Assembly: GCF_017433805.1 (NCBI RefSeq)
Contig: NZ_JAFRGN010000013.1
Span: 1 to 64,000 of the forward strand
Length of the DNA stretch: 64,000 nt
Direction of reading: 5' to 3'
From: Butyrivibrio sp.
GTDB lineage: Bacteria; Bacillota; Clostridia; Lachnospirales; Lachnospiraceae
The notes under the pieces were generated by a model, which was given only the letters and a program-made list of their open reading frames with translations, had not been told where the DNA came from and did no database searches. This document shows positions 30,359 through 62,835 of this stretch, piece by piece; position 1 is the stretch's first letter, and each line of letters starts with the position of its first letter. The translations under genes and the position numbers were made by a program.

Positions 30359-30399
30359 ACTGAATAACGTGCATAAAAACTATAGGGGGTTTTTTGCGA

Positions 30400-43710: not shown

Positions 43711-43739
43711 TTGCAAAGCTATTTGATACGTGATAAAGT
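43711..43739 (+). promoter_or_regulatory. Promoter of the ytcQ-like gene
   Basis: TTGCAA (43711-43716) and TAAAGT (43734-43739), 17-base spacer. Matches to consensus are moderate; support comes from the operator 15 bases downstream. Other parts of this gap (43396-43620) show no gene or clear signal. Confidence 0.5.
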
Positions 43740-43754
43740 ACGTTCATAAGCAAG

Positions 43755-43768
43755 TGAAAACGCTTACA
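43755..43768 (+). promoter_or_regulatory. LacI-type operator at the ytcQ-like promoter
   Basis: TGAAAACGCTTACA matches the uxaC site at 13 of 14 positions and lies between the -10 and the ribosome-binding site. Confidence 0.75.
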
Positions 43769-43807
43769 TTTTATTTTTCAAAAATTATTTTGGGAGGAAC
43801 AAAAATA

Positions 43808-45484
43808 ATGAAAAAGAAAGTTTTATCATTACTTCTTTCAACAGCAATGGTAGCTTCTCTTGCAGCTTGCGGTTCTGAAACAGCACCTGCTGACACAACA
43901 GCTACAGAGACAGCTCCTGCAGACACAGCTACAGAGGCTGCTCCTGCAGACACAGCTGCTGCTGAAGACTACACACTTGAGACTCTTAACATCGTAGTTG
44001 ATGGTACAGTTACAGCTACAGTTGAGAGCGGACAGAAAGAATTCGAAGAGCAGTGGGAAGCTGCTGTAGCTGAGAAGCTCGGCCATCCAGTTGATCTTGT
44101 TATCAATCAGCTCGACCATTCAGATTACGCTGGAACAGTATCTCGTCTTCTTACAACTGGTGAGCCAGGTGACGGATCATATCCAGATGCTCTTATCATG
44201 AGCGCTACAATGCTTAGACAGTATCAGACAACAGGTCTCCTTTGGGATATGGCTGATGCTTATGCAAACGCAGAGTTCCAGTCTCGTGTAACACTTCCTA
44301 CAGTTAACGAGAACATGAAGGACAGCGAAGGTCACCTTTATGGATTTGCTCCTACATATGGTAACGGATGTGTTACTTATGTTAAGCAGTCTTGGCTTGA
44401 TGCAGTTGGCATGAAGGCTGACGATATCAAGACTTTCGATGATTACTATGCAATGCTTAAGGCATTCACAGAGAACGATCCTGATGGAAACGGCAGCGCA
44501 GGCACATATGGTGTTATCGCAGCTGGTTTTGGTAAGCTTGACGAGGCTCCATACATCAACTACATGCCAGAGTTCTGGCAGGGCGCATATCCTTCATTCT
44601 ATCAGAAGGACGGCGTTTGGGTTGATGGTTTCCAGGAGCAGGCTACTGTTGATGCTCTTGCAAGACTTGCACAGGGTGTAGCTGATGGTGTTATCGATCC
44701 TGATACAGAGGATGCTGGAACAAAGCAGGCTCGTGAGAAGTTCTTCTCAAACGATCAGACAACATCTGAAGGTGTATTCACATATTGGGCTGGTACATGG
44801 CTTAGAACACTTACAACAAACATGGAAAAGCAGGAAGTTGACAACGACCTTGGCGACAACAGACTTGTTCAGCTTGCTCCTATCCAGGAGATCAAGGATA
44901 CATGGGGCGGATACCTCAACAGAGAAGCTCCAGTATGGGTAATCACAGATGATCAGGATGGCAACTCAGCTCGTGAGCAGGCTATCTTCGATGCACTTCT
45001 TGAGACAATGCTTGATGGCGACAGAGTACAGACACTTTGGACATATGGTGCAGAGGATGTTCACTGGTCAATCCACGCTGAAGAGTTCTCAACAAACGCT
45101 GATGATCCAGAGAAGAAGAAGGATTATTCATATGAAGAGGGTCAGTTCCACCTTAAGCAGTCTCCTAACGACCCTAACTCTGTATGGAAGAAGAATCACC
45201 TTGACGCTGTACTTGTAATTGCTCCTCTTACAAACGGATACGTTGATAACGATGAGCTTGTACAGGCTGGTAACAAGTTCTTCACAGAGAACTGTGTAGA
45301 TGCTCCTGCTGCAGCTTCTTGCGATACACTTGCTGAGAACAACGAGGCACTTGTAGAAGAGAAGACAACTCTTATGAAGCAGGCTGTTGCTGGTGAGATC
45401 ACACCTGAAGAAGCAATTGCTCAGTATCAGGCTGACTTTGGCGATATCGCTCAGCAGATTCTTGATGAGCTTAACGCTCAGTAA
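43808..45484 (+). CDS. Extracellular solute-binding lipoprotein of an oligosaccharide ABC importer (YtcQ/LplA-like)
   Basis: 558 residues. Lipobox SLAAC puts the lipidated cysteine at residue 21, followed by a Thr/Ala/Pro-rich tether with three APADT repeats (residues about 26-50). The binding domain has the LplA/YtcQ-type features (YPDALIMSATMLRQYQTTG, YGNGCVTYVKQSWLDAVG, LLETMLDGDRVQTLWTYG). GGGAGGA supports the ATG at 43808. With the next two permeases it resembles the YtcQ-YteP-YtcP importer that takes up rhamnogalacturonan oligosaccharides in Bacillus; the substrate here is inferred from that and from the esterase and GH43 genes downstream. Confidence 0.88.
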   Translation: MKKKVLSLLLSTAMVASLAACGSETAPADTTATETAPADTATEAAPADTAAAEDYTLETLNIVVDGTVTATVESGQKEFEEQWEAAVAEKLGHPVDLVINQLDHSDYAGTVSRLLTTGEPGDGSYPDALIMSATMLRQYQTTGLLWDMADAYANAEFQSRVTLPTVNENMKDSEGHLYGFAPTYGNGCVTYVKQSWLDAVGMKADDIKTFDDYYAMLKAFTENDPDGNGSAGTYGVIAAGFGKLDEAPYINYMPEFWQGAYPSFYQKDGVWVDGFQEQATVDALARLAQGVADGVIDPDTEDAGTKQAREKFFSNDQTTSEGVFTYWAGTWLRTLTTNMEKQEVDNDLGDNRLVQLAPIQEIKDTWGGYLNREAPVWVITDDQDGNSAREQAIFDALLETMLDGDRVQTLWTYGAEDVHWSIHAEEFSTNADDPEKKKDYSYEEGQFHLKQSPNDPNSVWKKNHLDAVLVIAPLTNGYVDNDELVQAGNKFFTENCVDAPAAASCDTLAENNEALVEEKTTLMKQAVAGEITPEEAIAQYQADFGDIAQQILDELNAQ

Positions 45485-45517
45485 TTAGCTACTAGCTATT
45501 ATATGATTTGACTTTTT

Positions 45518-45560
45518 CCCATCCTCCGAGGGAAAAACGCTTTCGGAGGGTGGGATTTTT
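45518..45560 (+). terminator. Terminator-like hairpin between the binding-protein and permease genes
   Basis: A 12-bp GC-rich stem CCCATCCTCCGA (45518-45529) with TCGGAGGGTGGG (45543-45554), then TTTTT. Inside an importer operon such a hairpin usually gives partial termination and excess binding protein. An extended -10 TGTTATAAT (45581-45589) may restart transcription. Confidence 0.85.
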
Positions 45561-45635
45561 ATGAAAAAAATTCCGGTTTTTGTTATAATTTACTAGATAA
45601 TAATTAACGATTTTTTGTGAAAGGATGAGGATGCA

Positions 45636-46592
45636 ATGAGTAAGAAACAAAATGTTACTACTACATCCACTGGTGCTCCTATCAATCAGAAACCTCTTGG
45701 TACACGTATCTGGAACAACCGTGGATACTATTTGATGTTTCTTCCAGTACTGGTTTTCGTAATCATAATTTATTATTGGCCTATGCTCGGCGTACGCTAT
45801 GCTTTCTATCAGTATAAACTGAAGAACATCACATGGGTTGGTCTTAAAAACTTTGAGACTATGTTTGGTAAAAAGGAGTTCTGGTCAGCCTTTACCAATA
45901 CGTTGCAAATATCTATTACTAAATTGCTTATCACAACATTTACATCAGTTCTTGTATCAGTTTTCTTAAACGAGATGCATAATTTGTTTGCTAAGAAATC
46001 ACTGCAGACAATTATTTACCTGCCTCACTTTATGTCATGGGCAGTAGTAGCAGCTATTTTCCAGTTGTTCCTTTCTACATCTTCAACTGGTTTCGTCAAT
46101 GAAACACTTAAGTCAATGGGACTTATCGCTAAGAGTATTGACTTCCTTCACTCCAAGCAATTATGGAGACCTATTTTCTATATTATCAATATTTGGAAGG
46201 AAACAGGTTGGGGAACAGTTATCTTCCTGGCAACACTTTCCGGAATCAACCCGGAACTCTATGAAGCAGCTGATATCGATGGCGCTTCAAGACTTCAGAA
46301 AATTTGGTATGTTACAGTACCAGCTCTTATGAATACGGTAATTATCGTACTGATCCTTAATCTTGCTAAGGTTCTTAACCTTTTTGAATCAGTATTCGTT
46401 TTATATAACAACCGTGTATTTGATGTTTCTGATGTTATTTCAACTTATGTATACCGTCAGACCTTCCTTACAGCAATCCCTGACTATGGATACACAACAG
46501 CCGTTGGTTTGTTCAAGTCTATTGTTGGTTGCGTACTTGTTCTTGTATGTAACTGGGCTAGTAAGAAGATTCGTGGACGCGGAATTATTTAA
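45636..46592 (+). CDS. Oligosaccharide ABC permease (YteP/LplB-like)
   Basis: 318 residues, six hydrophobic segments. The start YYLMFLPVLVFVIIIYYWPM and the EAA loop ELYEAADIDGASRLQKIWYV are those of LplB/YteP permeases. It is followed 12 bases later by its YtcP-like partner. No ATPase gene is present in the operon, so a shared MsmX-type ATPase encoded elsewhere is expected. Confidence 0.92.
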   Translation: MSKKQNVTTTSTGAPINQKPLGTRIWNNRGYYLMFLPVLVFVIIIYYWPMLGVRYAFYQYKLKNITWVGLKNFETMFGKKEFWSAFTNTLQISITKLLITTFTSVLVSVFLNEMHNLFAKKSLQTIIYLPHFMSWAVVAAIFQLFLSTSSTGFVNETLKSMGLIAKSIDFLHSKQLWRPIFYIINIWKETGWGTVIFLATLSGINPELYEAADIDGASRLQKIWYVTVPALMNTVIIVLILNLAKVLNLFESVFVLYNNRVFDVSDVISTYVYRQTFLTAIPDYGYTTAVGLFKSIVGCVLVLVCNWASKKIRGRGII

Positions 46593-46604
46593 GGAGGGAA
46601 CATT

Positions 46605-47480
46605 ATGGCACAGGTTAAAGCAGGCTCAATGCGTGTGCAGGCTAAGAAGAATAAAGTACATGTATTTGATATTGTTAACTACATAGTATTCGTTATAATT
46701 GCTCTGATAGTTCTTATTCCTATTTGGAAGGTTTTAGTTGATTCATTCAACTCAGTTGGCGTTTACAGATTCATGTTATGGCCAGAGGACTTCACATTTA
46801 ACGGATACCTCACAATCTTTACAACTGTAAGACTTTACAGACCTTTCCTTAACTCAGTTATCACAACAGTTTTAGGAACATTGCTTGGTCTTATTCTTTC
46901 AACACTTGGTGGATATGTACTTACTCAGAAGGATATGCCAGGAAGAAATGCACTTTCATTTTTCCTCCTGTTCACAATGATCTTCTCTGGTGGTATGATT
47001 CCTGAATACCTTGTTATGAAACAGCTTCACCTTGTAGATACAATGTGGATCCTTGTTATCAAGCATGGTATGAACGTATACAACCTGGTACTTATGAAGA
47101 ATTTCTTCGAGGGTATTCCTGAGTCTCTTTTTGAGGCAGCTAAGATTGACGGATGCTCACCAATGGGAATCTTCTTCAAGATCGTGCTTCCTCTTTCCAA
47201 GGCAGCTCTTGCATCAATCGGTCTTATGTATGCAGTAACTGTTTGGAATGATTACAGCACAGTTCAGATTTATATTACAAACCCAGATCAGGTTAACTTC
47301 CAGTATAAGCTGAGAGTTATGATCATGGATGGTGATACACCTACGACAGCTTATAAGGTATCACAGAATACTCTGTATTACGCAGCTATCGTTGTTGCTA
47401 TCCTTCCTTTCATGGCAGCTTATCCATTCCTTCAGAAGTACTTCGTACAGGGTGTTAATGTAGGAGCTGTTAAGGAGTAA
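46605..47480 (+). CDS. Oligosaccharide ABC permease (YtcP-like)
   Basis: 291 residues, six hydrophobic segments; EAA loop SLFEAAKIDGCSPMGIFFKI, and the N-terminal segment IVNYIVFVIIALIVLIPIWK and closing PFLQKYFVQGVNVGAVKE are typical of the YtcP/CUT1 permease group. AAGGAGGG precedes the ATG. It completes the importer channel with the preceding permease. Confidence 0.92.
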   Translation: MAQVKAGSMRVQAKKNKVHVFDIVNYIVFVIIALIVLIPIWKVLVDSFNSVGVYRFMLWPEDFTFNGYLTIFTTVRLYRPFLNSVITTVLGTLLGLILSTLGGYVLTQKDMPGRNALSFFLLFTMIFSGGMIPEYLVMKQLHLVDTMWILVIKHGMNVYNLVLMKNFFEGIPESLFEAAKIDGCSPMGIFFKIVLPLSKAALASIGLMYAVTVWNDYSTVQIYITNPDQVNFQYKLRVMIMDGDTPTTAYKVSQNTLYYAAIVVAILPFMAAYPFLQKYFVQGVNVGAVKE

Positions 47481-47504: not shown

Positions 47505-47539
47505 GAGAGAGAAATTCAATTTGAATTTCTCTCTTTTTT
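47505..47539 (+). terminator. Terminator after the ABC importer genes
   Basis: GAGAGAAATT (47507-47516) pairs with AATTTCTCTC (47524-47533) around a loop of seven, followed by TTTTTT. It lies 24 bases before the next start codon, so the downstream enzymes may depend on readthrough or on an unresolved promoter. Confidence 0.85.
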
Positions 47540-47562
47540 ATTCAATTGGAAAGGAAATACTA

Positions 47563-48285
47563 ATGAGACATATATTCTGGGCGGGAGATTCTACCGCAGC
47601 ATCTAATAAATATGTAACCTATCCGCAGACAGGTATTGCACAGGCTTTTGACAGATATACCAGAACGGATGTGGTTGTTGTAAACCATGCATTTAATGGA
47701 CGCAGCACTAAGAGCTTTATAGATGAGAGCAGACTTGCACCTATCTATAACGACATTACTAAAGGGGACTACTTATTTATCCAGTTTGGACACAACGATG
47801 AGAAGATAAATGACCCTAAAAGGTACACTGATCCTCATGGGGAGTTCATTGTTAATCTTGGTAAGTTTGTAAATGTAGCAAGGAACAAGGGGGCATATCC
47901 ACTTTTTATTACTCCTGTAGAGAGAAAACTCTTTGATGAAGATGGGAACCTGAAATTCTCTGGTCACGAAGAGTATGTGCTGGGTATGAAAGAAGCAGGA
48001 GAGAAGTTTGATGTCCCTGTTGTGGATCTGTATACAGCTAGTAGAGAGTTCCTTCAGAAAGTAGGACCGGAGGAAGCTAAGAAATACTACATGAACGTTG
48101 AGCCAGGTATTTATGACTGGCTTCCGGATGGACTTACAGATAATTCCCACCTCAAATATGAGGGAGCAATGTTATACGCAGGTATGATAGCAAAGAGCAT
48201 TGAAATGATCGGTGAGCCTTACGCAACACTCATCGCAGACAAGGATTATTTAAAAGATACATATAATATTGAAATTAACGGGTAG
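47563..48285 (+). CDS. SGNH esterase, rhamnogalacturonan acetylesterase-like (CE12)
   Basis: 240 residues with no signal peptide. Block I reads WAGDSTAASN (nucleophile Ser), block II has NGRST, block III FGHNDEKI, and block V DNSHLKYEGA supplies the catalytic Asp and His. The combination is that of CE12 enzymes, which remove acetyl groups from rhamnogalacturonan or related oligosaccharides. Cytoplasmic location suggests action on imported acetylated fragments. AAAGGAAA precedes the ATG at 47563. Confidence 0.85.
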   Translation: MRHIFWAGDSTAASNKYVTYPQTGIAQAFDRYTRTDVVVVNHAFNGRSTKSFIDESRLAPIYNDITKGDYLFIQFGHNDEKINDPKRYTDPHGEFIVNLGKFVNVARNKGAYPLFITPVERKLFDEDGNLKFSGHEEYVLGMKEAGEKFDVPVVDLYTASREFLQKVGPEEAKKYYMNVEPGIYDWLPDGLTDNSHLKYEGAMLYAGMIAKSIEMIGEPYATLIADKDYLKDTYNIEING

Positions 48286-48339
48286 AAATATATATTGATG
48301 AATAGTAAGTCATTTATGACTGGTGGTAATGAGGATATT

Positions 48340-50037
48340 ATGAAAAATTTATCAGATTTAGGAAACGGCAGATTTAGAAATCCAATTCTCTTTGCGGATT
48401 ATTCTGATCCTGATGTTATCAGAGTTGGCGATACATATTACATGACGGCTAGTAGCTTTAACTATACACCAGGACTTCCAATATTGATATCTCATGATCT
48501 TGTGAACTGGAAGCTTGTTAACTATGCTCTTAATAATATACAGGAAGACAGATACAAGATACCAAGACATTCTGAGGGAGTATGGGCTCCAGCTATTCGC
48601 TATCATGATGGAATGTTCTACATTTATTATGGTATGCCAGATGAGGGGTACTATGTTGTAAGGACTACTGATCCTCTTGGAAAGTGGGAGGAACCAATAT
48701 GTATCCTGGAAGGAAAAGGGCTTATTGATCCATGTCCTTTCTGGGATGAGGATGGTAAGGCCTATGTTATTCATGGCTATGCTAAGAGCAGAATCGGCTT
48801 TAAGAGTATTCTTGGAATATTCGAGTTGAGTAGTGATGGACTCAAGGCAATTTCTGAGGATCACTTTATCTTTGATGGTAATGATCCTCAGAATCCTGCA
48901 GTTACTATTGAAGGTCCCAAGGTATATAAAAGGGATGGCTATTACTATGTATGGGCGCCTGCTGGCGGAGTGAAATTTGGCTATCAGGTAGTACTTCGTA
49001 GTAGAGATATTCATGGACCTTATGAAATAAAAGAGGTTATGCATACGGGAAATACCGAGATAAACGGACCTCACCAAGGGGGACTAATAGATACCGTAAA
49101 TGGTGATGAATGGTTTATACATTTTCAGGACAGAGGCCTTTACGGCAGAATCTGCCACCTTCAGCCTGTCAACTGGCATGATGGCTGGCCAATTGTTGGA
49201 GTAAATCCTGATGAGAACAATATTGGAGAGCCTGTTGAAGAGATGGAGAAGCCAAATACTGGTATATCAGATGAACCTTCATATCTTGAGGCATCGGATT
49301 CATTTGAAGATGGCCAATATGGTCTTATGTGGCAATGGCTGGGTAATCACAGTAATCGCTTCTATGGAATTCGAGATAATGATGTATCAAAAGAAACTTC
49401 TCAGAACTGCTTGAGGCTTCGTGCCATTAACCTTTCAAATGAAAGTGAACCTATTATCTGGAAATGCTCAAATATTCTTACGCAGAAGATAATATATCCT
49501 CTTTTTAGAAGTGAAATAGGAGTTGATGCGACAGGTCTTTTGCCAGGGGATAGAGCAGGTGTTTGCATGACAGGTGGCCAGTATATGGCGGCATACTTGC
49601 AGCGAGAAGCTGAGAATAAATACACTGTCAGAGTTATTGAATCCTATGGCGGAGATAATGATAAGAAAGAAAAGGTCTTAGGCGAATACGAATTTGGTAA
49701 GCTGTGCTATGACTATGGTTTATCTATAGAGGAAGGTCTTAAGAATATTAGATTTATTCTTTCTTTTGAATGCGATGACAAGAGAGTAACATCCAAAGAG
49801 CTTTACTTCAAAAATGTAGAGGACAAGGATAATACTCCAATACTAAAAATGTATTTATCACTTGATGATGATAAGGATTTACGAAGGGCATTAGATCTAA
49901 AGGTGGCATATACACCATCTGACCATACCTGGGTTGGAGCCAAGCTAGGACTATTTGCGCTTTCCTGTGATATGGATAAAAAATCTGAATGTGAAGGCTA
50001 TGCAGATTTCCTGTATGCTGATATTCAGGAAATATAA
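48340..50037 (+). CDS. Glycoside hydrolase family 43 protein with C-terminal beta-sandwich
   Basis: About 565 residues, no signal peptide. The five-bladed catalytic domain (about 1-310) has the candidate base Asp in FADYSDPDVIRVGDTYYMTA, a second Asp in GLIDPCPFWDEDGKAYV, and the acid Glu in VTIEGPKVYKRDGYYYVWAP. Residues about 320-565 look like the GH43-associated C-terminal beta-sandwich (DSFEDGQYGLMWQWLGNH, GICMTGG-like segment). Such enzymes act as xylosidases or arabinofuranosidases. GAGG at 48331-48334 favours the ATG at 48340; TTG/ATG at 48295/48298 and ATG at 48316 are alternatives. Confidence 0.85.
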   Translation: MKNLSDLGNGRFRNPILFADYSDPDVIRVGDTYYMTASSFNYTPGLPILISHDLVNWKLVNYALNNIQEDRYKIPRHSEGVWAPAIRYHDGMFYIYYGMPDEGYYVVRTTDPLGKWEEPICILEGKGLIDPCPFWDEDGKAYVIHGYAKSRIGFKSILGIFELSSDGLKAISEDHFIFDGNDPQNPAVTIEGPKVYKRDGYYYVWAPAGGVKFGYQVVLRSRDIHGPYEIKEVMHTGNTEINGPHQGGLIDTVNGDEWFIHFQDRGLYGRICHLQPVNWHDGWPIVGVNPDENNIGEPVEEMEKPNTGISDEPSYLEASDSFEDGQYGLMWQWLGNHSNRFYGIRDNDVSKETSQNCLRLRAINLSNESEPIIWKCSNILTQKIIYPLFRSEIGVDATGLLPGDRAGVCMTGGQYMAAYLQREAENKYTVRVIESYGGDNDKKEKVLGEYEFGKLCYDYGLSIEEGLKNIRFILSFECDDKRVTSKELYFKNVEDKDNTPILKMYLSLDDDKDLRRALDLKVAYTPSDHTWVGAKLGLFALSCDMDKKSECEGYADFLYADIQEI

Positions 50038-50100
50038 TTAAATAATTAGTATATAAGGCAATTGGATAAATGACTTGTAACTGTTATATGAGGTGCTTAG

Positions 50101-51939
50101 ATGGATGTTGGTAAGATTAGTATCTACGAAGCTGCGCAAAATGGAGATTTTGCGCTTGTTAAATGGATAGTTGAATATTCAAGGTCTAGTCTCAATGAAT
50201 TTGCAGATAATCACAGGACTGCGCTTCATTTTGCTGCTATGTCCGGGAAACTGGATATGTTCAAATATCTGGTGGAAAGATGTGGCCTTGACCCTCTTCA
50301 GGGAGATATTGATCTTGTAACTCCTTGGGATATTGTAAGAGAAAATGAACATAAGGAAATTGATGATTATCTGACTCAAAGATATGGACATCGATATGAA
50401 GATTTCTATAGAAATCCGATAAGAACAGGCTTTTTTCCAGATCCTTCCATATGCAGAGTTGGGGAAGACTACTATATGGTCAACTCCTCATTTATCTTTT
50501 TCCCATGCATACCGATTTCGCATTCAAGAGATCTGATACACTGGGAGATAATCGGCCATGCTATCACTAACCCGGAGTGGGCAAGGCTCGAGGAACTTGA
50601 GGGCGGAAGAGGCTACTGGGCTCCGGATATTTCATTTTATGATGGAAGATTTTATATCGCTGCGACATATAGACTTAATGATACAGGAACAGTGTATAGA
50701 AGGCAGATGGTGGTTAGTTCAGATAAGCCTGAGGGGCCATATTCTGAGCCGGTGTTTATTGACGAAGATGGTATAGATCCAGGTCTTTTTAATGATGACG
50801 ATGGTCGCAGATACATGCTTCTAAACAGAGGAGCCAGAATATTTGAGCTTGATAAAACTGGAACTAAGAAGATTTCTGAGCCAACTCTTTTATACTATGG
50901 CAGTAACAAAAGAGCGCCGGAAGGGCCTCACATCTATAAGAAAGATGGCTATTACTATTTGCTTCAGGCTGAGGGGGGGACAGGTCCAGGCCACAGAGTA
51001 ACTGTATCTCGCAGTAGGGAACTAATGGGAGTGTATGAGCCATGTCCATATAATCCTATTATGAGGCAGAACGACGAGGGTGCTACCATACAAAGGTGCG
51101 GACATGGAGATATGGTAGAAACTCCTGATGGCAGATGGTACATGGTGTATCTGTGTGGCAGGAAAATAGGTGATGGCTATAGCATTCTTGGAAGAGAGAC
51201 TGCACTTGACCCTGTTACCTGGACAGCAGATGGCTGGCCAATAGTTAATGGATTAAAGGGACCATCCTGTATGCAGGTTAAGCCCTATCCTGAGATAACT
51301 GGTAGCTACAACAATACATTAGATTATATGACTCCAAGAGCCTTTAAGGATGGAGATGTTAAAATAAGTAGTGATGGAACATTTGTAATTCATGCAAGTG
51401 AATATCCTCTTAGCGATATTAGTAGCAGGAATATTGTTCTGAGAAGACAGAATAGCTTTGCTTTTGAGTATAGCGTCTTTATGGATATACCTGCAATTTC
51501 AGATGGACAGTGCGCTGGAATAACAGGTTATTACGACGAGAATACATTTTTAGAATTTGGTATCTGCAGAAGAAATGGCAGATTAACAGTATATTCCAGA
51601 GAACATATTGGAGAAGAGGACAGGTATATTTATGGGAATGAAGAAATTTCTTGCTCCATAAAGAAAATCTACTTGTGCATGAACACAGAATATCTTGAGC
51701 GTATGCTTTCATATAGACTGATATCAGATGATAATACAGATGTAGTAAATATAACTAGTACAGTTACTGATTCAGAATTAACTATATTTACTACATTATC
51801 AAATGTTTATTATCTATGTGATGAAGGGTATGATAAAGGTAAGAGATTTACAGGTGCGCTTGTTGGAATGTATGCAGTTGGTGGAGTTAACAATTCTTTG
51901 TATGTAAGCTTTATGGATTCTGTTTACATTGATAAGTAA
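50101..51939 (+). CDS. Ankyrin-repeat/GH43 fusion protein
   Basis: 612 residues, no signal peptide. Residues about 1-95 contain two to three ankyrin repeats: IYEAAQNGDFALVKWIVEYS, then RTALHFAAMSGKLDMFKYLV (39-58) and a looser TPWDIVRENEHKEIDDYL. From residue 103 a GH43 domain begins (NPIRTGFFPDPSICRVGEDY, candidate base Asp114), with IDPGLFNDDDGRRYML (second Asp) and APEGPHIYKKDGYYYLL (acid Glu); a C-terminal beta-sandwich follows from about 420. I know of no described ankyrin-GH43 protein. The ankyrin part may dock the enzyme to a partner in the cytoplasm (inference). The gene is continuous, with no frameshift at the join. Confidence 0.85.
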   Translation: MDVGKISIYEAAQNGDFALVKWIVEYSRSSLNEFADNHRTALHFAAMSGKLDMFKYLVERCGLDPLQGDIDLVTPWDIVRENEHKEIDDYLTQRYGHRYEDFYRNPIRTGFFPDPSICRVGEDYYMVNSSFIFFPCIPISHSRDLIHWEIIGHAITNPEWARLEELEGGRGYWAPDISFYDGRFYIAATYRLNDTGTVYRRQMVVSSDKPEGPYSEPVFIDEDGIDPGLFNDDDGRRYMLLNRGARIFELDKTGTKKISEPTLLYYGSNKRAPEGPHIYKKDGYYYLLQAEGGTGPGHRVTVSRSRELMGVYEPCPYNPIMRQNDEGATIQRCGHGDMVETPDGRWYMVYLCGRKIGDGYSILGRETALDPVTWTADGWPIVNGLKGPSCMQVKPYPEITGSYNNTLDYMTPRAFKDGDVKISSDGTFVIHASEYPLSDISSRNIVLRRQNSFAFEYSVFMDIPAISDGQCAGITGYYDENTFLEFGICRRNGRLTVYSREHIGEEDRYIYGNEEISCSIKKIYLCMNTEYLERMLSYRLISDDNTDVVNITSTVTDSELTIFTTLSNVYYLCDEGYDKGKRFTGALVGMYAVGGVNNSLYVSFMDSVYIDK

Positions 51940-51994
51940 TGACTGTAGTACAATATTCAATGAGATAAATAAGGTTTTTAAGGAAGGAAATATT

Positions 51995-52834
51995 ATGCAG
52001 ATAGGAATCAGATTTCACGATACAGTAGAGCTCCCTTTTGAGGAGAGACTTCAGGAGATAAAGAGACAGGGCTTTAGCTGCACACACATTGCGCTTTCCA
52101 AGGTGCCAGGCTTTACAGCCAATACTGATGCACTTACACCTGGATATGCAATGTATATGAGAGATGCCTTTAGAAGAGCAGATCTTGATGTAGCTGTTCT
52201 AGGCTGTTACCTTAACTTGGCAACTCCAGATGCTGCTGCCCTTAAGGCTAATCAGGACAAATATATGGCACACCTTCGTTTTGCTTCACTTATGGGAGCT
52301 GGCATGGTTGGAACAGAGACTGGCGCTCCTAATGTTGACTATCACTATGACAAGGAAGCATGCCATTCACAGGAGGCTCTTGATACCTTCATTACAAATC
52401 TTCGCCCTGTAGTTGACTATGCTGAGAAGATGGGTGTAATCCTCGCAATTGAGCCTGTATACAGACATATTGTATGGAATCCTAAGAGAGCAAGAGAGGT
52501 TCTTGATAGAATAGAATCACCTAACCTTCAGATCATTTTTGATCCTGTTAACCTTCTTTGGACTGATAACTTTGATCAGAGACAGGAGGTTTTTGAAGAG
52601 GCTATAGACCTTCTTGCCAAGGATATCTGCATGATCCACTTAAAGGATGCTGTGGTAGAGGGCGATAGTGTTAAGAGTATGGCTTGCGGTCTTGGAGAGA
52701 TCAACTACGATACAATCGTTAAGTTTGCTCTTGAGAAGAAGCCATTTATACATGCTACACTTGAGGATACCAAGCCTGATAACGCTGTAGCTGCAAGAGA
52801 ATTTATTCAGAATATCGAGAAAAAATTTAGTTAA
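51995..52834 (+). CDS. Sugar phosphate isomerase/epimerase-like TIM barrel (AP endonuclease 2 family)
   Basis: 279 residues, cytoplasmic. The xylose-isomerase-like barrel shows metal-ligand positions in GTETGAPNVDYHY, LAIEPVYRHIVWNP, IIFDPVNLLW and MIHLKDAVVEGD, and LEDTKPDNA at the end. Members isomerise or epimerise keto sugars or sugar phosphates. AAGGAAGG supports the ATG at 51995. Its place after GH43 and before a uronate-type TRAP transporter suggests a role on a released pentose or uronate intermediate, not further defined. Confidence 0.85.
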   Translation: MQIGIRFHDTVELPFEERLQEIKRQGFSCTHIALSKVPGFTANTDALTPGYAMYMRDAFRRADLDVAVLGCYLNLATPDAAALKANQDKYMAHLRFASLMGAGMVGTETGAPNVDYHYDKEACHSQEALDTFITNLRPVVDYAEKMGVILAIEPVYRHIVWNPKRAREVLDRIESPNLQIIFDPVNLLWTDNFDQRQEVFEEAIDLLAKDICMIHLKDAVVEGDSVKSMACGLGEINYDTIVKFALEKKPFIHATLEDTKPDNAVAAREFIQNIEKKFS

Positions 52835-53002: not shown

Positions 53003-54097
53003 ATGAAGAAAAAACTTATTGCAGTACTGATGACAGCAACCATGATCGCATCTCTTGCAGCTTGTGGTGTTACTGCTCCAGAATCAGTTGATACTGGAAG
53101 TCAGCAGACAGAGGCTACTCAGGAAACAAAAACTGAGGAGACCAAGACAGAAACAGCTACAGAAACAGCTCCAGCAGCAGATGCTATCAAGCTGGTTATG
53201 GCTGAGGTTAACCCACTGGATACTATTGTTGGTATGACAGACCAGAAGTTTAAGGAAGAGGTTGAGGCTAGATCTAACGGATCTATCATTATCGACCTTC
53301 AGGCTAGTGGCGTTCTCGGATCAGAGAATGACGTTCTTGATACAATGCTTGGTGGCGGCGGAACAATCGATATGTCTCGTATTTCTGCTTTCGCTCTTAC
53401 AAGCTATGGCGGACAGAAGTCAATGCTTCTTTCACTTCCATATATCTTCACAAGCCGTGAGCACTTCTGGAACTTTGCTACATCTGATCTCGCTCAGGAA
53501 TTCCTCCAGGAGCCATCAGAGAATGGTAGTGGTGTAAGAGGTCTCTATTATGGAGAAGAAGGTTTCCGTCATTTCTTCACATCATATGAAATTTCAGATA
53601 TTAACTCATTCAAGGGCAAGAAGATCCGTGTTTCTAATGACCCTATCATGAATGGTCTTGTAGAGGGCCTTGGCGCTTCTCCTACAGTTGTAAGCTTTGG
53701 TGAGCTTTATTCAGCTCTTCAGACTGGTGTTGTTGATGGTGCTGAGCAGCCTATCGCTAACTACAAGTCAAACGCATTCCCAGAGGTTGCACCTTACATG
53801 ATCCTTGACGGACATACACTTGGTGCTATCCAGGTTATCATTACTGATGAGGCATGGAACAAGCTTTCAGCAGAGCAGCAGAACATCCTCGTAGAAGCTG
53901 GTAAGGTTGCTTCTGAGTACAATCGTTCAATCTCTGAGGAAAAAGAGAATCAGGTTCTTGAAGAGCTCAAGGCTGATGGCGTAACAATCATCGAGGTTGA
54001 GGACATTACACCTTGGCAGGAAGCTGTTAAGCCTGTAATCGAAGAGAACATCAAGGGTCTTGAGGACTACTATCAGAAGATCGTAGACATGAAATGA
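53003..54097 (+). CDS. dctP: TRAP transporter solute-binding lipoprotein (DctP)
   Basis: 364 residues. Lipobox SLAAC gives lipidated Cys21, followed by a Thr/Glu/Gln-rich tether to about residue 60. The DctP fold is clear: NGSIIIDLQASGVLGSENDV, GEEGFRHFF, FKGKKIRVSNDPIMNGLVEG with the conserved arginine, and QTGVVDGAEQP. TRAP transporters import carboxylates, often uronates, using the sodium gradient. GGGAGG precedes the ATG. Next to uxaC/uxaA the likely substrate is galacturonate or glucuronate (inference). Confidence 0.93.
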   Translation: MKKKLIAVLMTATMIASLAACGVTAPESVDTGSQQTEATQETKTEETKTETATETAPAADAIKLVMAEVNPLDTIVGMTDQKFKEEVEARSNGSIIIDLQASGVLGSENDVLDTMLGGGGTIDMSRISAFALTSYGGQKSMLLSLPYIFTSREHFWNFATSDLAQEFLQEPSENGSGVRGLYYGEEGFRHFFTSYEISDINSFKGKKIRVSNDPIMNGLVEGLGASPTVVSFGELYSALQTGVVDGAEQPIANYKSNAFPEVAPYMILDGHTLGAIQVIITDEAWNKLSAEQQNILVEAGKVASEYNRSISEEKENQVLEELKADGVTIIEVEDITPWQEAVKPVIEENIKGLEDYYQKIVDMK

Positions 54098-54147
54098 TAG
54101 ATGGATGCAATCCGTATATCATTAATAATATTGAGTAGAGGAGCCGT

Positions 54148-54672
54148 ATGAATAATTTTTTTGATACGGTGGATAGAATCAAGCCTGTATATGATGTGGC
54201 CTATAAAATAACACTATTTATATGTAAGCTCTTGCTGGTGGCAGATATTCTGATCACCAGCATGAGCGTACTTGGAAGATATGTGTCTTTTGTTCCTGAT
54301 CCATCCTGGAGCGAGGAGGTTGTATTAACACTCATGTCCTATATGGCAGTGCTGTCTGCAGCACTTGCTATCAGGCGCGGAGCGCATATCCGTATGACGG
54401 CTCTGGATATTTATCTGCCTAAAAAGCTAATTAAGATACTGGATCTGCTATCAGATGCCTGCGTTATGTGTCTTGCTTTCGTTATGCTGATCGTAGGATG
54501 GAAGTACGCAAGCACTATTGGCAGTAAGGGAGTTTATGTTTCACTTCCTAAGCTTTCAAGATTCTGGATGTATTTCCCAATTCCTGTTGCAGGCTTTGCT
54601 ATGATCATCTTCGAACTTGAAGCTATCTACAACCACATAAAGGGATTTTTTGTAAAGGAGGAGAATAAGTGA
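54148..54672 (+). CDS. dctQ: TRAP transporter small membrane subunit (DctQ)
   Basis: 174 residues with four hydrophobic segments. SWSEEVVLTLMSYMAVLSAA and the following RRGAHIRMTALD are the usual DctQ signature. GAGGAG supports the ATG. It overlaps the DctM start by four bases (GTGA), and the two subunits together form the TRAP membrane complex. Confidence 0.93.
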   Translation: MNNFFDTVDRIKPVYDVAYKITLFICKLLLVADILITSMSVLGRYVSFVPDPSWSEEVVLTLMSYMAVLSAALAIRRGAHIRMTALDIYLPKKLIKILDLLSDACVMCLAFVMLIVGWKYASTIGSKGVYVSLPKLSRFWMYFPIPVAGFAMIIFELEAIYNHIKGFFVKEENK

Positions 54673-55967
54673 TAGATACAAATACTACTGCGATCGCTAT
54701 TTTGCTTATTAGCTTCCTTGTAATGATTTTTCTTAGATTTCAGATTGCTTATGCTGTAGCACTTTCATCAATCCTTTGCCTTCTTTATCAGGGACTTCCA
54801 CTTACAACTGTCTGCCAGCAGATGGTTAAGGGAATCAGTTCTTTTTCATTGATGGCAGTTCCATTCTTTATCACTATGGGCTGTATCATGGGAAAAGGAG
54901 GTATATCGGAAAAGCTTATAGCACTGGCGGATGCCTGTGTTGGCTGGATGACAGGTGGCATGGCGATGGTTAACATTGTAGCATCTTACTTCTTTGGTGG
55001 AATATCAGGATCTGCAGCAGCAGACACAGCTTCACTTGGAAGTATCCTGATTCCTATGATGGTTGAGCAGGGCTATGATGATGACTTCTCAACTGCAGTA
55101 ACAATCACTTCCTCATGCGAAGGACTCCTTGTTCCTCCCAGTCATAACATGGTAATCTACGCTATGAGTGCTGGTGGAGTTTCTGTAGGAAGTCTGTTCC
55201 TGGCTGGATATATTCCAGGAGCCCTGCTTGCTCTTTCTCTGATGATTGGCTCTTACATTATTTCCAAGAAGCGCCATTATCCTAAGGGAGATGCATTCAG
55301 CTTTAAGACCTTTATCAAGCAGCTTGGAATATCTTTCTGGGCACTTGCTGCGGTAATTATCGTTGTAGTTGGCGTTGTAGGTGGTGTTTTCACTGCTACA
55401 GAGTCAGCAGCTATTGCTGTAATCTACAGCCTTATTGTCAGCGTATTTATCTATAAGGGACTTGACTGGAAGGGTGTATGGAAGACACTTGAGCAGTGTG
55501 TAGACACATTGTCCATAGTACTTATCCTTATTGCAACATCGAGTATTTTTGGATACTGTCTCACAACACTCCATGTTCCTGATCTTGCAGCCAGAACAAT
55601 CATTGGAATTACAAGAAATCCAGTTCTTATAGCACTTCTTCTTAACCTTATACTTCTGGTACTCGGATGTATTATGGATATGGCTCCAATCATTCTGATC
55701 GCGACACCTATCCTTCTTCCAATAGCAACTTCTATTGGAATTGATCCTGTACAGTTTGGTATAATGATAGTGCTTAACTGTGGTATTGGACTTCTGACAC
55801 CTCCTGTTGGAGCAGTTCTTTTCATAGGCTCTGCTGTTGGTAAGGTTAAGATGGAGAGAGTTGTTAAGGCAACACTTCCATTCTATATCTGCATGATCTT
55901 AGTACTCATGCTCCTTACATTTATTCCGGAGATCAGTATGTTCCTGCCAAATCTTTTAATGAAATAA
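54669..55967 (+). CDS. dctM: TRAP transporter large membrane subunit (DctM)
   Basis: 432 residues with about twelve hydrophobic segments. Typical DctM blocks are seen: FFGGISGSAAADTASLGSIL, IPMMVEQGYDDDFSTAVT, SCEGLLVPPSHNMVIYA and, near the end, ILNCGIGLLTPPVGAVLF-like sequence. The start is GTG, inside the dctQ stop, with AAGGAGG upstream. It is the Na+-coupled translocation subunit. Confidence 0.94.
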   Translation: MIDTNTTAIAILLISFLVMIFLRFQIAYAVALSSILCLLYQGLPLTTVCQQMVKGISSFSLMAVPFFITMGCIMGKGGISEKLIALADACVGWMTGGMAMVNIVASYFFGGISGSAAADTASLGSILIPMMVEQGYDDDFSTAVTITSSCEGLLVPPSHNMVIYAMSAGGVSVGSLFLAGYIPGALLALSLMIGSYIISKKRHYPKGDAFSFKTFIKQLGISFWALAAVIIVVVGVVGGVFTATESAAIAVIYSLIVSVFIYKGLDWKGVWKTLEQCVDTLSIVLILIATSSIFGYCLTTLHVPDLAARTIIGITRNPVLIALLLNLILLVLGCIMDMAPIILIATPILLPIATSIGIDPVQFGIMIVLNCGIGLLTPPVGAVLFIGSAVGKVKMERVVKATLPFYICMILVLMLLTFIPEISMFLPNLLMK

Positions 55968-58042: not shown

Positions 58043-58852
58043 ATGTACAAAATACTTGTAGCAGATGATGAACCTATAGAGAGACAGGTTATTTTCAAGA
58101 AACTGAATAGTTTTTTTCCAGAGAAGGTTCAGATAATAACTGCCGAAAATGGAATTGAAGCATCCAGATTATTTGAGGAAAAAGAGTGTCAGATAGCCAT
58201 TCTTGATATTGAGATGCCTGGAATGAATGGCCTTGAGGCTGCAGAGAAGATCAGAAGCTATGACAAGGACTGCAGCATAGTTTTTCTGACGGCTTTTGAG
58301 GAATTTGGTTATGCCAAAAAAGCTATCGGAGTAAGGGCTCTTGATTATCTGCTTAAGCCTGGTTCCGATGAAGAGCTTGTAAATGTAATGGAGGAAGCCT
58401 TTAGAATCTGTGACGAATCTGAGCAGCGAGCAGCTAAGGTTACAGAGGAATTAGAGCATATAAATGAAGTGGCAAATGAGAATTGCTCTGCTTTTATGGG
58501 AAGCGAAAACTGTTTACATGATGGGCAGGATAACACCCTGATCGGAATTGTTCAGAAATATATTGATGAGCACTACACAGAGGATATAGCACTTCAGGAT
58601 ATTGCAGGCTTTCTTGATTATTCAGATGTTTACTTCTGCAAGCTTTTTAAACATAACTTTGGCAAGAATTTCATTACTTATCTTAATGAATACAGGATGA
58701 ATAAGGCTAAAGAGCTTTTGTCTGACCCTTTGATAAATATCAAGGATGTGGGACAGGAGGTTGGCTATAGGGATGCCAACTATTTTACAAGACTGTTCAA
58801 ACGTATGACAGGCGTTACGCCTAGTGAGTACAGGAGTGGAGTTTTAGGCTGA
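58043..58852 (+). CDS. AraC-type response regulator (YesN-like)
   Basis: 269 residues. The receiver domain (1-120) has ADDEP acid residues, phosphoacceptor Asp55 in AILDIEMPGMNG, Thr in FLTAF and Lys in YLLKPG. After a linker, the C-terminal two-helix-turn-helix AraC domain (about 165-269) reads IALQDIAGFLDYSDVYFCKL and VGQEVGYRDANYFTRLFKR. GGGGGA supports the ATG at 58043, inside the kinase reading frame end. It is the partner of the kinase and probably controls the TRAP or pectin genes. Confidence 0.92.
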   Translation: MYKILVADDEPIERQVIFKKLNSFFPEKVQIITAENGIEASRLFEEKECQIAILDIEMPGMNGLEAAEKIRSYDKDCSIVFLTAFEEFGYAKKAIGVRALDYLLKPGSDEELVNVMEEAFRICDESEQRAAKVTEELEHINEVANENCSAFMGSENCLHDGQDNTLIGIVQKYIDEHYTEDIALQDIAGFLDYSDVYFCKLFKHNFGKNFITYLNEYRMNKAKELLSDPLINIKDVGQEVGYRDANYFTRLFKRMTGVTPSEYRSGVLG

Positions 58853-59868
58853 TGAATAAGAAATGGGGATACGGTATCGCTATTTTTATTTCAATAATAG
58901 TTGTGGTACTGCTTGGCATCAGGATTTTTTTCTGGGTCAATAAGGGGAAAAATGAGACTACACCTGAATATGTACTTTTCTATGCTGAGAATCAGGTTGA
59001 GGACTATCCTACAACACTCGGGGCACAGAAATTTGCTGACAGAGTATATGAATGTACTGATGGTAGAATCAAGATTATAGTTAAATGCGAAGCTGAGCTT
59101 GGCAGTGAGATGCAGGTTATTCAACAGATGCAGTTTGGCGGAATTGCTTTTGCCAGAGTATCTCTTTCTCAGATTGCTGAGTATATTCCTGAGATGAACG
59201 TTTTGCAGCTGCCATATCTGTACAGCGATTCTGAGCACATGTGGAGAGTTCTGGATGGTGAAATTGGTGACTTTTTCCTTGAGGAGACGTTAAAAGAGTG
59301 CATTGTTGGTCTTTCCTGGTATGACGCTGGCGCGAGAAACTTCTATAGTACAAAGCCAATTTCCAAACTGGAAGATTTGGAAGGCATGAATATAAGAGTT
59401 CAGGAATCAGATATGATGGCTGATATGGTTTCTGCACTGGGCGCCAATCCTATGAAGATTGTCTATGCTGATGTATACTCAGCGCTGGAGCAGGGAATTG
59501 TTGACTGTGCTGAGAATAACTGGCCTTCCTATGAAGCCATGAGACACTGTGATGTGGCTAGGTACTACACGCTTGATGAGCATACGAGAGTACCAGAGCT
59601 TCAGATATGCTCCAAGGTAATATGGGATAAGCTCTCAGTAGAAGATCAGAAGATAATTATGGAGTGCGCCAGGGAGTCAGCTCTTTTAGAGAGGCGCCTT
59701 TGGCAGGAGAGAGAAAAGACCTCAAAGGAAATCGCAGAAAAGAGAGGTACAACGGTTATTACCCTGCCTGATAGCGAGAAAAAGAGATTTAGAAATGCCA
59801 TGAGCCTTGTATATGAGAAATATGCAGGTGATCAGATGGACATGATCAGCAAGATAACAGAATATTAA
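58852..59868 (+). CDS. Membrane-anchored TRAP-type (DctP-like) binding protein, probable co-sensor
   Basis: 338 residues. A single N-terminal hydrophobic helix (about 8-29) without a lipobox anchors a DctP-fold domain: NQVEDYPTTLGAQKFADRV, YDAGARNFYSTKPIS, LEDLEGMNIRVQESDMMADM with the conserved arginine, and EQGIVDCAENNWPSY. The ATG overlaps the response-regulator stop by one base. A second complete TRAP importer is already encoded upstream, so this one is better read as a ligand receptor that works with the kinase. B. subtilis DctB, a DctP-like protein needed by DctS/DctR, is a precedent. Confidence 0.85.
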   Translation: MNKKWGYGIAIFISIIVVVLLGIRIFFWVNKGKNETTPEYVLFYAENQVEDYPTTLGAQKFADRVYECTDGRIKIIVKCEAELGSEMQVIQQMQFGGIAFARVSLSQIAEYIPEMNVLQLPYLYSDSEHMWRVLDGEIGDFFLEETLKECIVGLSWYDAGARNFYSTKPISKLEDLEGMNIRVQESDMMADMVSALGANPMKIVYADVYSALEQGIVDCAENNWPSYEAMRHCDVARYYTLDEHTRVPELQICSKVIWDKLSVEDQKIIMECARESALLERRLWQEREKTSKEIAEKRGTTVITLPDSEKKRFRNAMSLVYEKYAGDQMDMISKITEY

Positions 59869-60627: not shown

Positions 60628-62739
60628 TTATTTCTTAAGATGTTCGTACTGAGTCATAAGCTCCTCAGGAACAGGAATTTCTTCTTTTCTGAGCTTATTG
60701 ATTATATTGACGACAGGTTTGGTCTGATTAGATATTCTGGTATTGTAGTGGTTGATAAGCTCAGTGTACTGAGGATTATCGGCCACTTTTTCACGTAGCT
60801 CTTTGGCAAATGGACAGAAGGTGAACATGATTTCCCTGACAACCTTGTTAAGTCTTGGTGAGCCTGCTGCCTCGAATTTAACGTAAGCAAGATAATCAGC
60901 GATAAATACGTTCTTATAGTTATTGCTGAATTTCTTAAGATCTGTACGAAGCTTTTCTTTATTCTCTGTAGAAAGAGCAGGATTCTTCTTGTAGAACTGC
61001 AGATAATCGCAGTACATGGATGTAAGAGACGGATCTGTTACATCATTCCAGTGAATACCCTGTTCAGTCTTACACATTTCCCATCTGAACTCAGCAAAGA
61101 GTCTTATCATGCATTCTTCAGTGTTTTCAGTGTTGAATATTGAAACCAGCATTCTGGCTGGAGTTCTTCTGTTTTTACCTTCGATTTCCTGCCAAAGGGA
61201 TGCTCTTGAGCCTACGTTAGGCATAAGAATCATATATGGAGTAATGTCGTCTGCGTAGTGGAGCTGTGGAACACCAATCTCAGGATTAGAGAAAAGAGCT
61301 GTTCTGCAGAATACACCGTAGTCGACACTTCTGATCATTGCGTAATACTCATTGATCTTGGCAACGTTAAGATAAGCCATATCAAGCGGTCTTAGGACGT
61401 TTTGTGCATCAAAAACAGGAACGAAGGATGAGATTCGTCCAAAGGTCATTCTGTTTCCAAGAGCAAATAGATTGTGAACCTCGAAATTAAGCTTGCTGGT
61501 AGGATCATTTGTCATGAGCTCTACCTGTGCCTGATTGAGCTGACCACTTGCCTTTTGTTCTCTAAGGTAGGTAGGCCAGTCCTGGTCAAATTCATTTCGT
61601 GAAGGCTCGACTTCAAGGTTGTATACTTTTTTAAGCCATTCGTAGCAGGTCAATACCTTGCCTTCAGGATCTGAGACATAGGCTTTGGCCATGTTGTAGA
61701 GTATGGCTGTATTTTTTTCTCCGGCAAGTTCTTCATCTACAAAGCCAAACATGAAGAACATACGAACTTCCATAGGAACATTGTCATCCCCAAGACTCTT
61801 TAAGAAAGCAGGAGTGTATACCTCGTAGAAGGTTGTGGCTATGTTTCTACGGAGAGCTCTGGCTTCATCGGCAGAGTCATAGCGATTGTTCATGGCCTTG
61901 AACTGAGATAGCTGCTCCTCGAACTTTACAGAGATTTCAGGAGCGACATTTGCATACTGAAGAATTGTGCTAAGGGCATTAACAACTGTAACAGAGCCTT
62001 CTCCAGTACCATTGTTGTTCTCAAGGTTATTTAGCTTAGCACGTATGGCCTTCATCGTTGTAGCAAAAGCTGCAGTTTTCTTTTTGAGCGTATTTCTGTA
62101 TTCGATAAGAAGCTGGGATTCTCTGGAAATTTTGGTATATATCTCGTAGGTGCACATTACGACACCGGTAGCAATCTCAATGCTAAGAGGATAGAAGGTT
62201 CTCTTAAGGGAAGCCTCATTTTTCTTAAGGCTTCTGATAAATTCAAAGGACCATTCAGTTATATCATCGCTCTGTTCGGGCGCTATGATTTCTTTTATTT
62301 CTGGGAATTCTTTGGGAACTTCGCCTACCTTTATGCAAAGGTTGGGATAATCAGTGTAATCTGTAATAACCTGATCGTATTCGGAAGTGGCATCTTCGTA
62401 TTCTTTTTCGTAGACATCACAGCACTTAATAGCTGCTTCAACAGACTGAGCAGCAAGAATAGGGGCAATCTTGGGATTTGATTTAACAACGTTTGGAATA
62501 TCATTTTCTGATTCGAAAGGGTAGGAATAGACAGCAGCTTCATCCAGGGCTTCTATGTTGTATTTGTAGGTAGAGCCAGGAGTTTCTACTATGCCTATAA
62601 ATCCGCCCACAGACATAACAATAGAAGTATATTGATTAGAAATCTTCAGACTTCCCTTTACAACAACCTCGATGGTTTCAACAATATCTGTGCCTGCTTT
62701 ATGAAGAATTTGCCCTTTTTCAAGTTTGATAAGACCCAT
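60628..62739 (-). CDS. Large protein with N-terminal cyclic-nucleotide-binding-like domain
   Basis: 703 residues, cytoplasmic. Residues about 1-130 look like a Crp-type cNMP-binding beta-roll (MGLIKLEKGQILHKAGTDIV, VVKGSLKISNQY, then FIGIVETPGSTYKYNIEAL), but no helix-turn-helix follows. Instead there is a helical region with a coiled coil near 215-260 and a long domain of about 400 residues that I do not recognise (WPTYLREQKASGQLNQAQVE, SLWQEIEGKNRRTPARMLVS). GGAGG on the minus strand fixes the ATG at 62739; an upstream ATG gives 12 extra residues. The ligand is unknown; the usual phosphate-binding RxS motif is not evident, so it may not bind cAMP. Confidence 0.7.
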   Translation of the reverse strand: MGLIKLEKGQILHKAGTDIVETIEVVVKGSLKISNQYTSIVMSVGGFIGIVETPGSTYKYNIEALDEAAVYSYPFESENDIPNVVKSNPKIAPILAAQSVEAAIKCCDVYEKEYEDATSEYDQVITDYTDYPNLCIKVGEVPKEFPEIKEIIAPEQSDDITEWSFEFIRSLKKNEASLKRTFYPLSIEIATGVVMCTYEIYTKISRESQLLIEYRNTLKKKTAAFATTMKAIRAKLNNLENNNGTGEGSVTVVNALSTILQYANVAPEISVKFEEQLSQFKAMNNRYDSADEARALRRNIATTFYEVYTPAFLKSLGDDNVPMEVRMFFMFGFVDEELAGEKNTAILYNMAKAYVSDPEGKVLTCYEWLKKVYNLEVEPSRNEFDQDWPTYLREQKASGQLNQAQVELMTNDPTSKLNFEVHNLFALGNRMTFGRISSFVPVFDAQNVLRPLDMAYLNVAKINEYYAMIRSVDYGVFCRTALFSNPEIGVPQLHYADDITPYMILMPNVGSRASLWQEIEGKNRRTPARMLVSIFNTENTEECMIRLFAEFRWEMCKTEQGIHWNDVTDPSLTSMYCDYLQFYKKNPALSTENKEKLRTDLKKFSNNYKNVFIADYLAYVKFEAAGSPRLNKVVREIMFTFCPFAKELREKVADNPQYTELINHYNTRISNQTKPVVNIINKLRKEEIPVPEELMTQYEHLKK

Positions 62740-62835
62740 ATTATGCCTCCGGATGATCGCCAGATACCTACTCATAATAATGTTATCACGTCAAAAAGTT
62801 TACTTCAATCCGCATGTGGGCTGTAAATCTTAAAT

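Follow-up and report, generated by a model that had tools for sequence, protein, structure and literature searches.

The fusion gene and its surroundings

We have analysed a window of 64,000 nucleotides of Butyrivibrio sp. DNA (contig NZ_JAFRGN010000013.1, positions 1 to 64,000) that encodes, at positions 50101..51939 of the plus strand, an ankyrin-GH43-GH43_C2 fusion protein of 612 amino acids plus stop, referred to here as GH43_B. The GH43_A, esterase, importer and AP_endonuc_2 genes described below lie on the plus strand as well. The gene begins with an ATG at 50101, and the sequence GAGGTG at 50090-50095 ends five bases 5' of this codon. The ankyrin module occupies residues 1-100 (50101..50400), with Pfam matches spanning residues 9-66; in this interval Ank_4 (5e-9), Ank_2 (2.6e-8), Ank_3 and Ank are above their Pfam cut-offs and Ank_5 is below. 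The final repeat and cap (about residues 70-96) are placed provisionally, by alignment with relatives. Counted from profiles and alignment rather than from a computed fold, there are about three repeats in the window protein and about four in most relatives. When residues 1-103 were compared on their own with the PDB, they matched chains of ankyrin and designed ankyrin proteins (Ank_2/Ank_4; for example 5vkq, 5et0 and 4qfv) with a best E of 1.1e-27, and so the ankyrin match exceeds chance. Within the window's own genome GH43_B is the sole match to the Ank_2 profile, the one profile used for that count.

The GH43 catalytic domain follows at residues 103-380 (50407..51240; PF04616, 4.2e-86, 289.3 bits against a cut-off of 32.2), and a GH43_C2 domain at residues 409-604 (51325..51912; 1e-18). 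Three candidate catalytic acids, D114 (50440..50442, in a PDPS motif), D226 (50776..50778, GIDP) and E274 (50920..50922, APEGPH), pair with identical residues in GH43 proteins of solved structure, 6ms3 and 5jow among them, and are invariant in a 79-row alignment made from 78 of the best 80 of 567 relatives (L112 and L114 excluded) and the window protein; we take them to be the catalytic positions of the family. The N-terminus, MDVGKISIYEAAQNGDF, has no hydrophobic stretch when read by eye. A preliminary description of this DNA had proposed ankyrin repeats and a GH43 domain in a single uninterrupted frame, with all three acidic residues and no signal peptide. The coordinates, the frame and the acids hold up, and no export signal is visible at the N-terminus. 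The ankyrin string quoted there corresponds to residues 39-58, and the GH43_C2 domain had gone unmentioned.

Solved chains that combine GH43 and GH43_C2 include 6ms3/6ms2 (‘Glycoside Hydrolase Family 43’), the non-reducing end alpha-L-arabinofuranosidase BoGH43A (5jow) and the beta-xylosidases 5z5d and 1yrz. The 6ms3 chain aligns with GH43_B over residues 100-492 (1.2e-121), a stretch that takes in the GH43 domain and the first part of the C-terminal domain, and shares its three acids. Unlike GH43_B, these chains are without an ankyrin module, their best alignments beginning at query residue 95 or later. The usual accessories of glycosidases are sugar-binding modules, and GH43_B is a new domain architecture joining two known families. 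Literature searches, in which subscription journals are thinly covered, returned no title on an ankyrin-GH43 protein, and a search on the 6ms3 enzyme found nothing. In the portions of text available, a paper on Flavobacterium counts ankyrin proteins and GH43 separately (PMC6801697) and the ankyrin mentions of two further papers (PMC12483993, PMC9123166) are unrelated to GH43_B; the word ‘ankyrin’ is absent from the main text of PMC5217386, PMC6344614 and PMC2914790.

A second GH43 enzyme, GH43_A (GH43 plus GH43_C2 by Pfam; 48295..50037), ends 63 bases upstream of GH43_B, and is preceded by a GDSL esterase gene (47521..48285; Pfam) and by a putative oligosaccharide ABC importer (43730..47480) consisting of a binding protein and two permeases (45636-46592 and 46605-47480). 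The extracellular binding protein has no Pfam match at 1e-4 and is named from its look and position. A terminator-like hairpin at 47505-47535 overlaps the TTG at which the GDSL gene is listed to begin, and this start is therefore probably too far upstream, the true one lying further downstream. The importer, esterase and second GH43 named as neighbours in the preliminary description are thus all present by Pfam and the list of open reading frames. Further upstream are genes for a LacI regulator, glucuronate isomerase and altronate dehydratase; downstream are an AP_endonuc_2 (xylose-isomerase-like) protein (51929..52834; Pfam), which is the next gene after GH43_B, a TRAP transporter and a two-component system. 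Since glucuronate isomerase and altronate dehydratase are encoded nearby, the substrates may be uronate-containing oligosaccharides, and a pectic substrate fits the neighbours, glucuronoarabinoxylan being a possible alternative. In two Butyrivibrio strains, according to the part of the source available, GH43 and CE12 genes have genes for importer binding proteins close by, and genes of sugar importers are up on xylan or pectin (PMC6344614); according to the available parts of two other papers, predictions place the majority of the GH43 enzymes in B. proteoclasticus inside the cell (PMC2914790, PMC5217386). A scan for promoter-like sites gave no excess (22 against 28.7 in shuffles) and does not fix the operon limits; terminator-like sites numbered 8, against 5.4 in shuffles.

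We note several other features of the window. A lone DctP-type TRAP binding protein (58852-59868), separate from the DctPQM set at 53003-55967, lies right after a histidine kinase and an AraC-type response regulator and possibly serves as a sensor input. An 818-aa protein at 27685-30141 has an SBP_bac_1 match on residues 415-705 only, with about 400 residues ahead of it carrying no assignment; the frame at 30394-32577 has CBM2 and CBM6 matches and no catalytic domain by Pfam at 1e-4; and a 715-aa frame on the minus strand (60628-62775) has no Pfam match at 1e-4.

Distribution and ancestry of the fusion

The fusion is genuine and is conserved in many related bacteria. From 567 confirmed relatives the best 80 were retained, a selection that favours full-length matches, and in 79 of these 80 the ankyrin part is aligned from query residue 11 or earlier, the exception (L112) beginning at query residue 39. 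Bearers of the fusion include the isolates Butyrivibrio sp. AE2015, MC2021 and XPD2006 and B. proteoclasticus P18. The record titles of the relatives also name Roseburia, Cellulosilyticum, Clostridium, Solobacterium and Monoglobus, while titles of metagenome-assembled genomes such as Alistipes and Bacillus are doubtful. The Monoglobus pectinilyticus protein (NZ_OY725742.1) is 53.7% identical over residues 12-604, ankyrin part included, and its product name, ‘family 43 glycosylhydrolase’, gives GH43 only. In a sample of 392 genomes of the order, the module is matched at 1e-5 in 50 and strongly (E 1e-19 or better) in 36, and all 36 strong matches lie within the GH43_B enzyme, so that in the searched genomes this type of ankyrin module is restricted to GH43_B. 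A phylum-wide draw of 358 genomes yielded, at 1e-15, the window's own genome as the sole match, which indicates that the module is concentrated in this order, bar the titled exceptions.

We give next to no credence to the idea that an assembly error, a possibility that the preliminary description had raised, or a frameshift produced the fusion. Such an explanation could draw on one genome, G277, in which the ankyrin and GH43 parts (L147, 5544-7669) occupy two frames that overlap, the break falling in a short run of T. Against it, the same architecture is shared by 79 of the best 80 of the 567 relatives, cultured Butyrivibrio included, and by all 36 strong matches from the sampled genomes of the order, and is found both in isolates and in a single-contig genome (G380). 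The arrangement in G277 may be a real split, slippage or a sequencing error. We decided against reading it as three cleanly separate genes, since the break lies in a short T run and the ankyrin part is degenerate.

To place the fusion on the GH43 family we used a quick tree of 134 GH43_B domains, 129 of them different since several genes are entered under two locus names, taken from 47 of the relatives' loci, the window protein and loci of the order sample, from which L152 and L153 had been dropped as duplicates. In this tree (LG+G4, SH-aLRT support only), which contains long branches and whose rooting outgroup is not clean, a single group of 87 rows (support 99) contains every one of the 85 rows labelled as ankyrin-bearing, and the ankyrin label needs 3 changes compared with a shuffled mean of 40.3. 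The two other rows of the group are L198, which is cut by a contig end, and L154, a fusion of GH43_B to a following GH43_A that sits on a long branch and is without the module, yet retains parts of the ankyrin-type sequence round the active site (FFPC, GGRGYWAP). The sister group comprises 38 rows without the module (for example L163 and L172), two of which are fusions of GH43_A to a following GH43_B; its members are about 40-50% identical to GH43_B over GH43 and C2, and differ from it in lacking the module and at fixed positions 136, 168-172, 242, 270-272, 450, 479-480, 583 and others. The simplest reading of the tree would be one gain and one real loss (L154). A single acquisition at the root of one GH43 clade is the most probable origin of the module, which has since stayed with the enzyme.

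Conservation of the ankyrin module

Compared with other ankyrin proteins, the module of GH43_B has an extra conserved patch, E-Y-S-R-x-S-x-N, at residues 25-32 (50173..50196). In 76 non-redundant rows E25, Y26 and Y56 are present in 76/76, R39 in 71, S30 in 69 and R28 in 65, a conservation that, on our reading of the fold, appears to go past what an ankyrin fold needs. The patch is altered in distant lineages (L147, L149-L151, L200, L202 and L222), and we have accordingly rejected it as a universal feature. An extra N-terminal repeat relative to the window protein is found in 65 of the 79 rows from the best 80 of the 567 relatives, its absence from the other 14 being due in some cases to the chosen start codon. 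From the window protein the repeat is truly absent, since the gene starts 63 bases after the stop of the companion and there are in-frame stops upstream.

The three parts differ in mean pairwise identity, with 0.45 for the ankyrin module, 0.77 for GH43 and 0.39 for C2. Their pN/pS values, pooled from nine independent pairs, are 0.19, 0.07 and 0.33 in the same order, and the coding sequence of the ankyrin module is under purifying selection. A comparison of 84 ankyrin-bearing with 38 ankyrin-less rows revealed fixed differences at positions that include 136, 168, 169, 172, 220, 242-243, 265-272, 287, 380, 450, 453, 479, 480, 529, 580, 583 and 586, with 265-272 sitting directly before the candidate catalytic residue E274. 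Sixteen otherwise conserved positions of the enzyme (108, 136, 155, 158, 172, 200, 223, 264, 270, 287, 332, 353, 449, 571, 572 and 574) are altered in at least four of five rows of the degraded-patch lineage. We regard the fixed and the co-changing positions as leads for possible contacts between the module and the enzyme body and not as proof, the degraded-patch lineage being fast-evolving overall; the fixed differences may stem from substrate divergence only.

GH43_A and the role of the module

In the order sample GH43_A is present in 69 of the 72 genomes with GH43_B and in 15 of the 320 without it (Fisher p 9e-58, relatedness ignored), whereas a control GH43 paralogue is found in 12/72 and 23/320. 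For these counts the E limits were 1e-108 or better together with tree position for GH43_B, 1e-70 for GH43_A and 1e-100 for the control. G142 and G290 possess GH43_B of both kinds and were entered as ankyrin-bearing, as was G266, by the tree position of its locus L198. Divided in this way, 36 of 38 ankyrin-bearing genomes and 33 of 34 ankyrin-less genomes have GH43_A. At the level of loci, the 79 unfused relatives (from the best 80 of 567) divide as follows: GH43_A immediately precedes GH43_B on the same strand in 42, lies downstream in 2 and is on the opposite strand in 5; among those where it was not seen, 16 have long flanks and 14 short ones. A same-strand GDSL gene is found in 48 of these 79 and a perm2-like permease in 49, some flanks being short. 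Among 36 further ankyrin-bearing loci (35 from the order sample and L159), GH43_A is beside, near or fused in 15 and was not seen in the examined stretch, which is short for some, in 21. It is beside, near or fused in 9 of 40 loci tabulated as ankyrin-less, with which L198 is counted here.

There are also five fusions of the two enzymes: GH43_A-ankyrin-GH43_B (L114 and L148), GH43_A-GH43_B (L156 and L157, which are near copies) and GH43_B-GH43_A (L154), the last two types carrying no ankyrin module. For L114, L148 and L157 the layout is backed by a Pfam check. On the co-occurrence and the natural fusions, which are indirect evidence as regards a complex, we take GH43_A and GH43_B to be companions in one pathway. 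In a GH43_A tree of 86 rows the ankyrin label of the partner needs 12 changes, at least 11 of them forced by starred branches, while shuffled labels need 27.3 on average and none of 500 shuffles came as low as 12. The label is clustered as taxonomy alone would give, and the two kinds are mixed on supported branches (G134 with G188 and G216), so that the GH43_A tree appears to follow it only loosely. We note in addition that G142 (L179 and L215) and G290 (L196 and L217) each have an ankyrin-bearing and an ankyrin-less GH43_B together and one listed GH43_A match.

The explanation we tentatively prefer, short of confidence in it, is that the ankyrin module is a self-packing or self-assembly part of its own enzyme. 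GH43_B would be an exo-acting glycosidase of the alpha-L-arabinofuranosidase/beta-xylosidase type, probably cytosolic, that would trim oligosaccharides of plant-wall origin, either pectic or from glucuronoarabinoxylan, that the adjoining ABC importer would take up, in the same pathway as GH43_A. The module would pack on its own catalytic unit, or hold copies of the enzyme together, through the E-Y-S-R patch. This reading is supported by the confinement of the module to one tree group (85/85, in 87) and of all 36 strong matches to GH43_B, by a purifying selection of 0.19 on a module whose patch is conserved past fold needs, by the fixed differences beside E274 and the 16 positions that co-change in the degraded-patch lineage, and by the persistence of the module whether the companion is adjacent, elsewhere in the genome or fused upstream. 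It is weakened by L154, which lost the module and retains parts of the sequence round the active site, indicating that the module is not indispensable, and by the distant lineages in which the patch is altered, and which show that it is not universal. Tight packing is not suggested by L019/L159, where large insertions between the repeats and the GH43 domain are tolerated, and the fixed differences, as noted above, have possible causes other than contact. The observations would fit binding to some partner protein as well as they fit self-packing.

That the module instead docks GH43_B onto GH43_A, giving a two-enzyme complex for imported oligosaccharides, we consider rather unlikely. The preliminary description had proposed docking on another protein, with the neighbouring GH43 as one example, and docking specifically on GH43_A became attractive once the fusions were found: those of the A-B and B-A types have no module, as if fusion could substitute for docking, and the co-occurrence of the two enzymes, far exceeding that of the control paralogue, together with the upstream position of the companion in 42 of the 79 unfused relatives, fits such a role. 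Docking of this kind predicts, however, that GH43_A goes with the ankyrin form, and the proposal was then weakened by the genome counts, the GH43_A tree and the locus tables. The companion is equally faithful to ankyrin-less homologues, the two kinds are mixed on its tree, 21 of the 36 further ankyrin-bearing loci show no GH43_A in the examined stretch (short for some), and G142 and G290 each combine both kinds of GH43_B with one listed GH43_A match; moreover, L114 and L148 retain the module though GH43_A is already covalently joined. Of the proposal as first made, the fusion itself and the neighbouring GH43 as a functional companion are supported, and a docking of this neighbour by the ankyrin part is not; the latter has become less probable. 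Ankyrin repeats usually serve in protein binding, and the module could also dock GH43_B onto another protein, such as the GDSL esterase, a part of the importer or a protein encoded outside the locus. The same-strand GDSL and permease genes of many unfused relatives are in keeping with this, but no candidate partner is present throughout, both genes being absent from the flanks of the Solobacterium and Monoglobus loci, and we think it unlikely.

It seems quite improbable that the module assists sugar binding, or shapes extra substrate subsites, as a substitute for a carbohydrate-binding module. Its presence does track differences near the candidate active site, and no more than about 14 residues separate its end from the candidate base D114; yet we know of no ankyrin repeat family with oligosaccharide binding as its main role, and L154 retains much of the enzyme type without the module. 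More improbable still is a passenger without a function of its own, as might be suggested by the one real-looking loss (L154) and the degraded copies (L147 and L149-L151), given that the module is under purifying selection and has been retained in 85 rows of the tree group. Going beyond self-packing, we can imagine, as a possibility about which we remain doubtful, that the module is a dedicated scaffold for a cytosolic oligosaccharide-processing assembly (with itself, GH43_A or the esterase), a counterpart of secreted enzyme complexes that would have been gained a single time among Lachnospiraceae and relatives and replaced in some lineages by direct GH43-GH43 fusion. A conserved ankyrin-glycosidase of apparently single origin suggests that intracellular oligosaccharide breakdown in gut and rumen bacteria may be physically organised, and the natural variants (fused, split and ankyrin-less), together with a short list of residues, provide a means of testing this.

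Lastly, we note one genome in which each of the two companion enzymes contains long insertions of low complexity (L159, G002:C68; 1221-3251 and 3957-6626). The ankyrin-GH43 frame there is 890 aa long, with AEKEQPS-like repeated stretches in its C-terminal part, and GH43_A is 677 aa.
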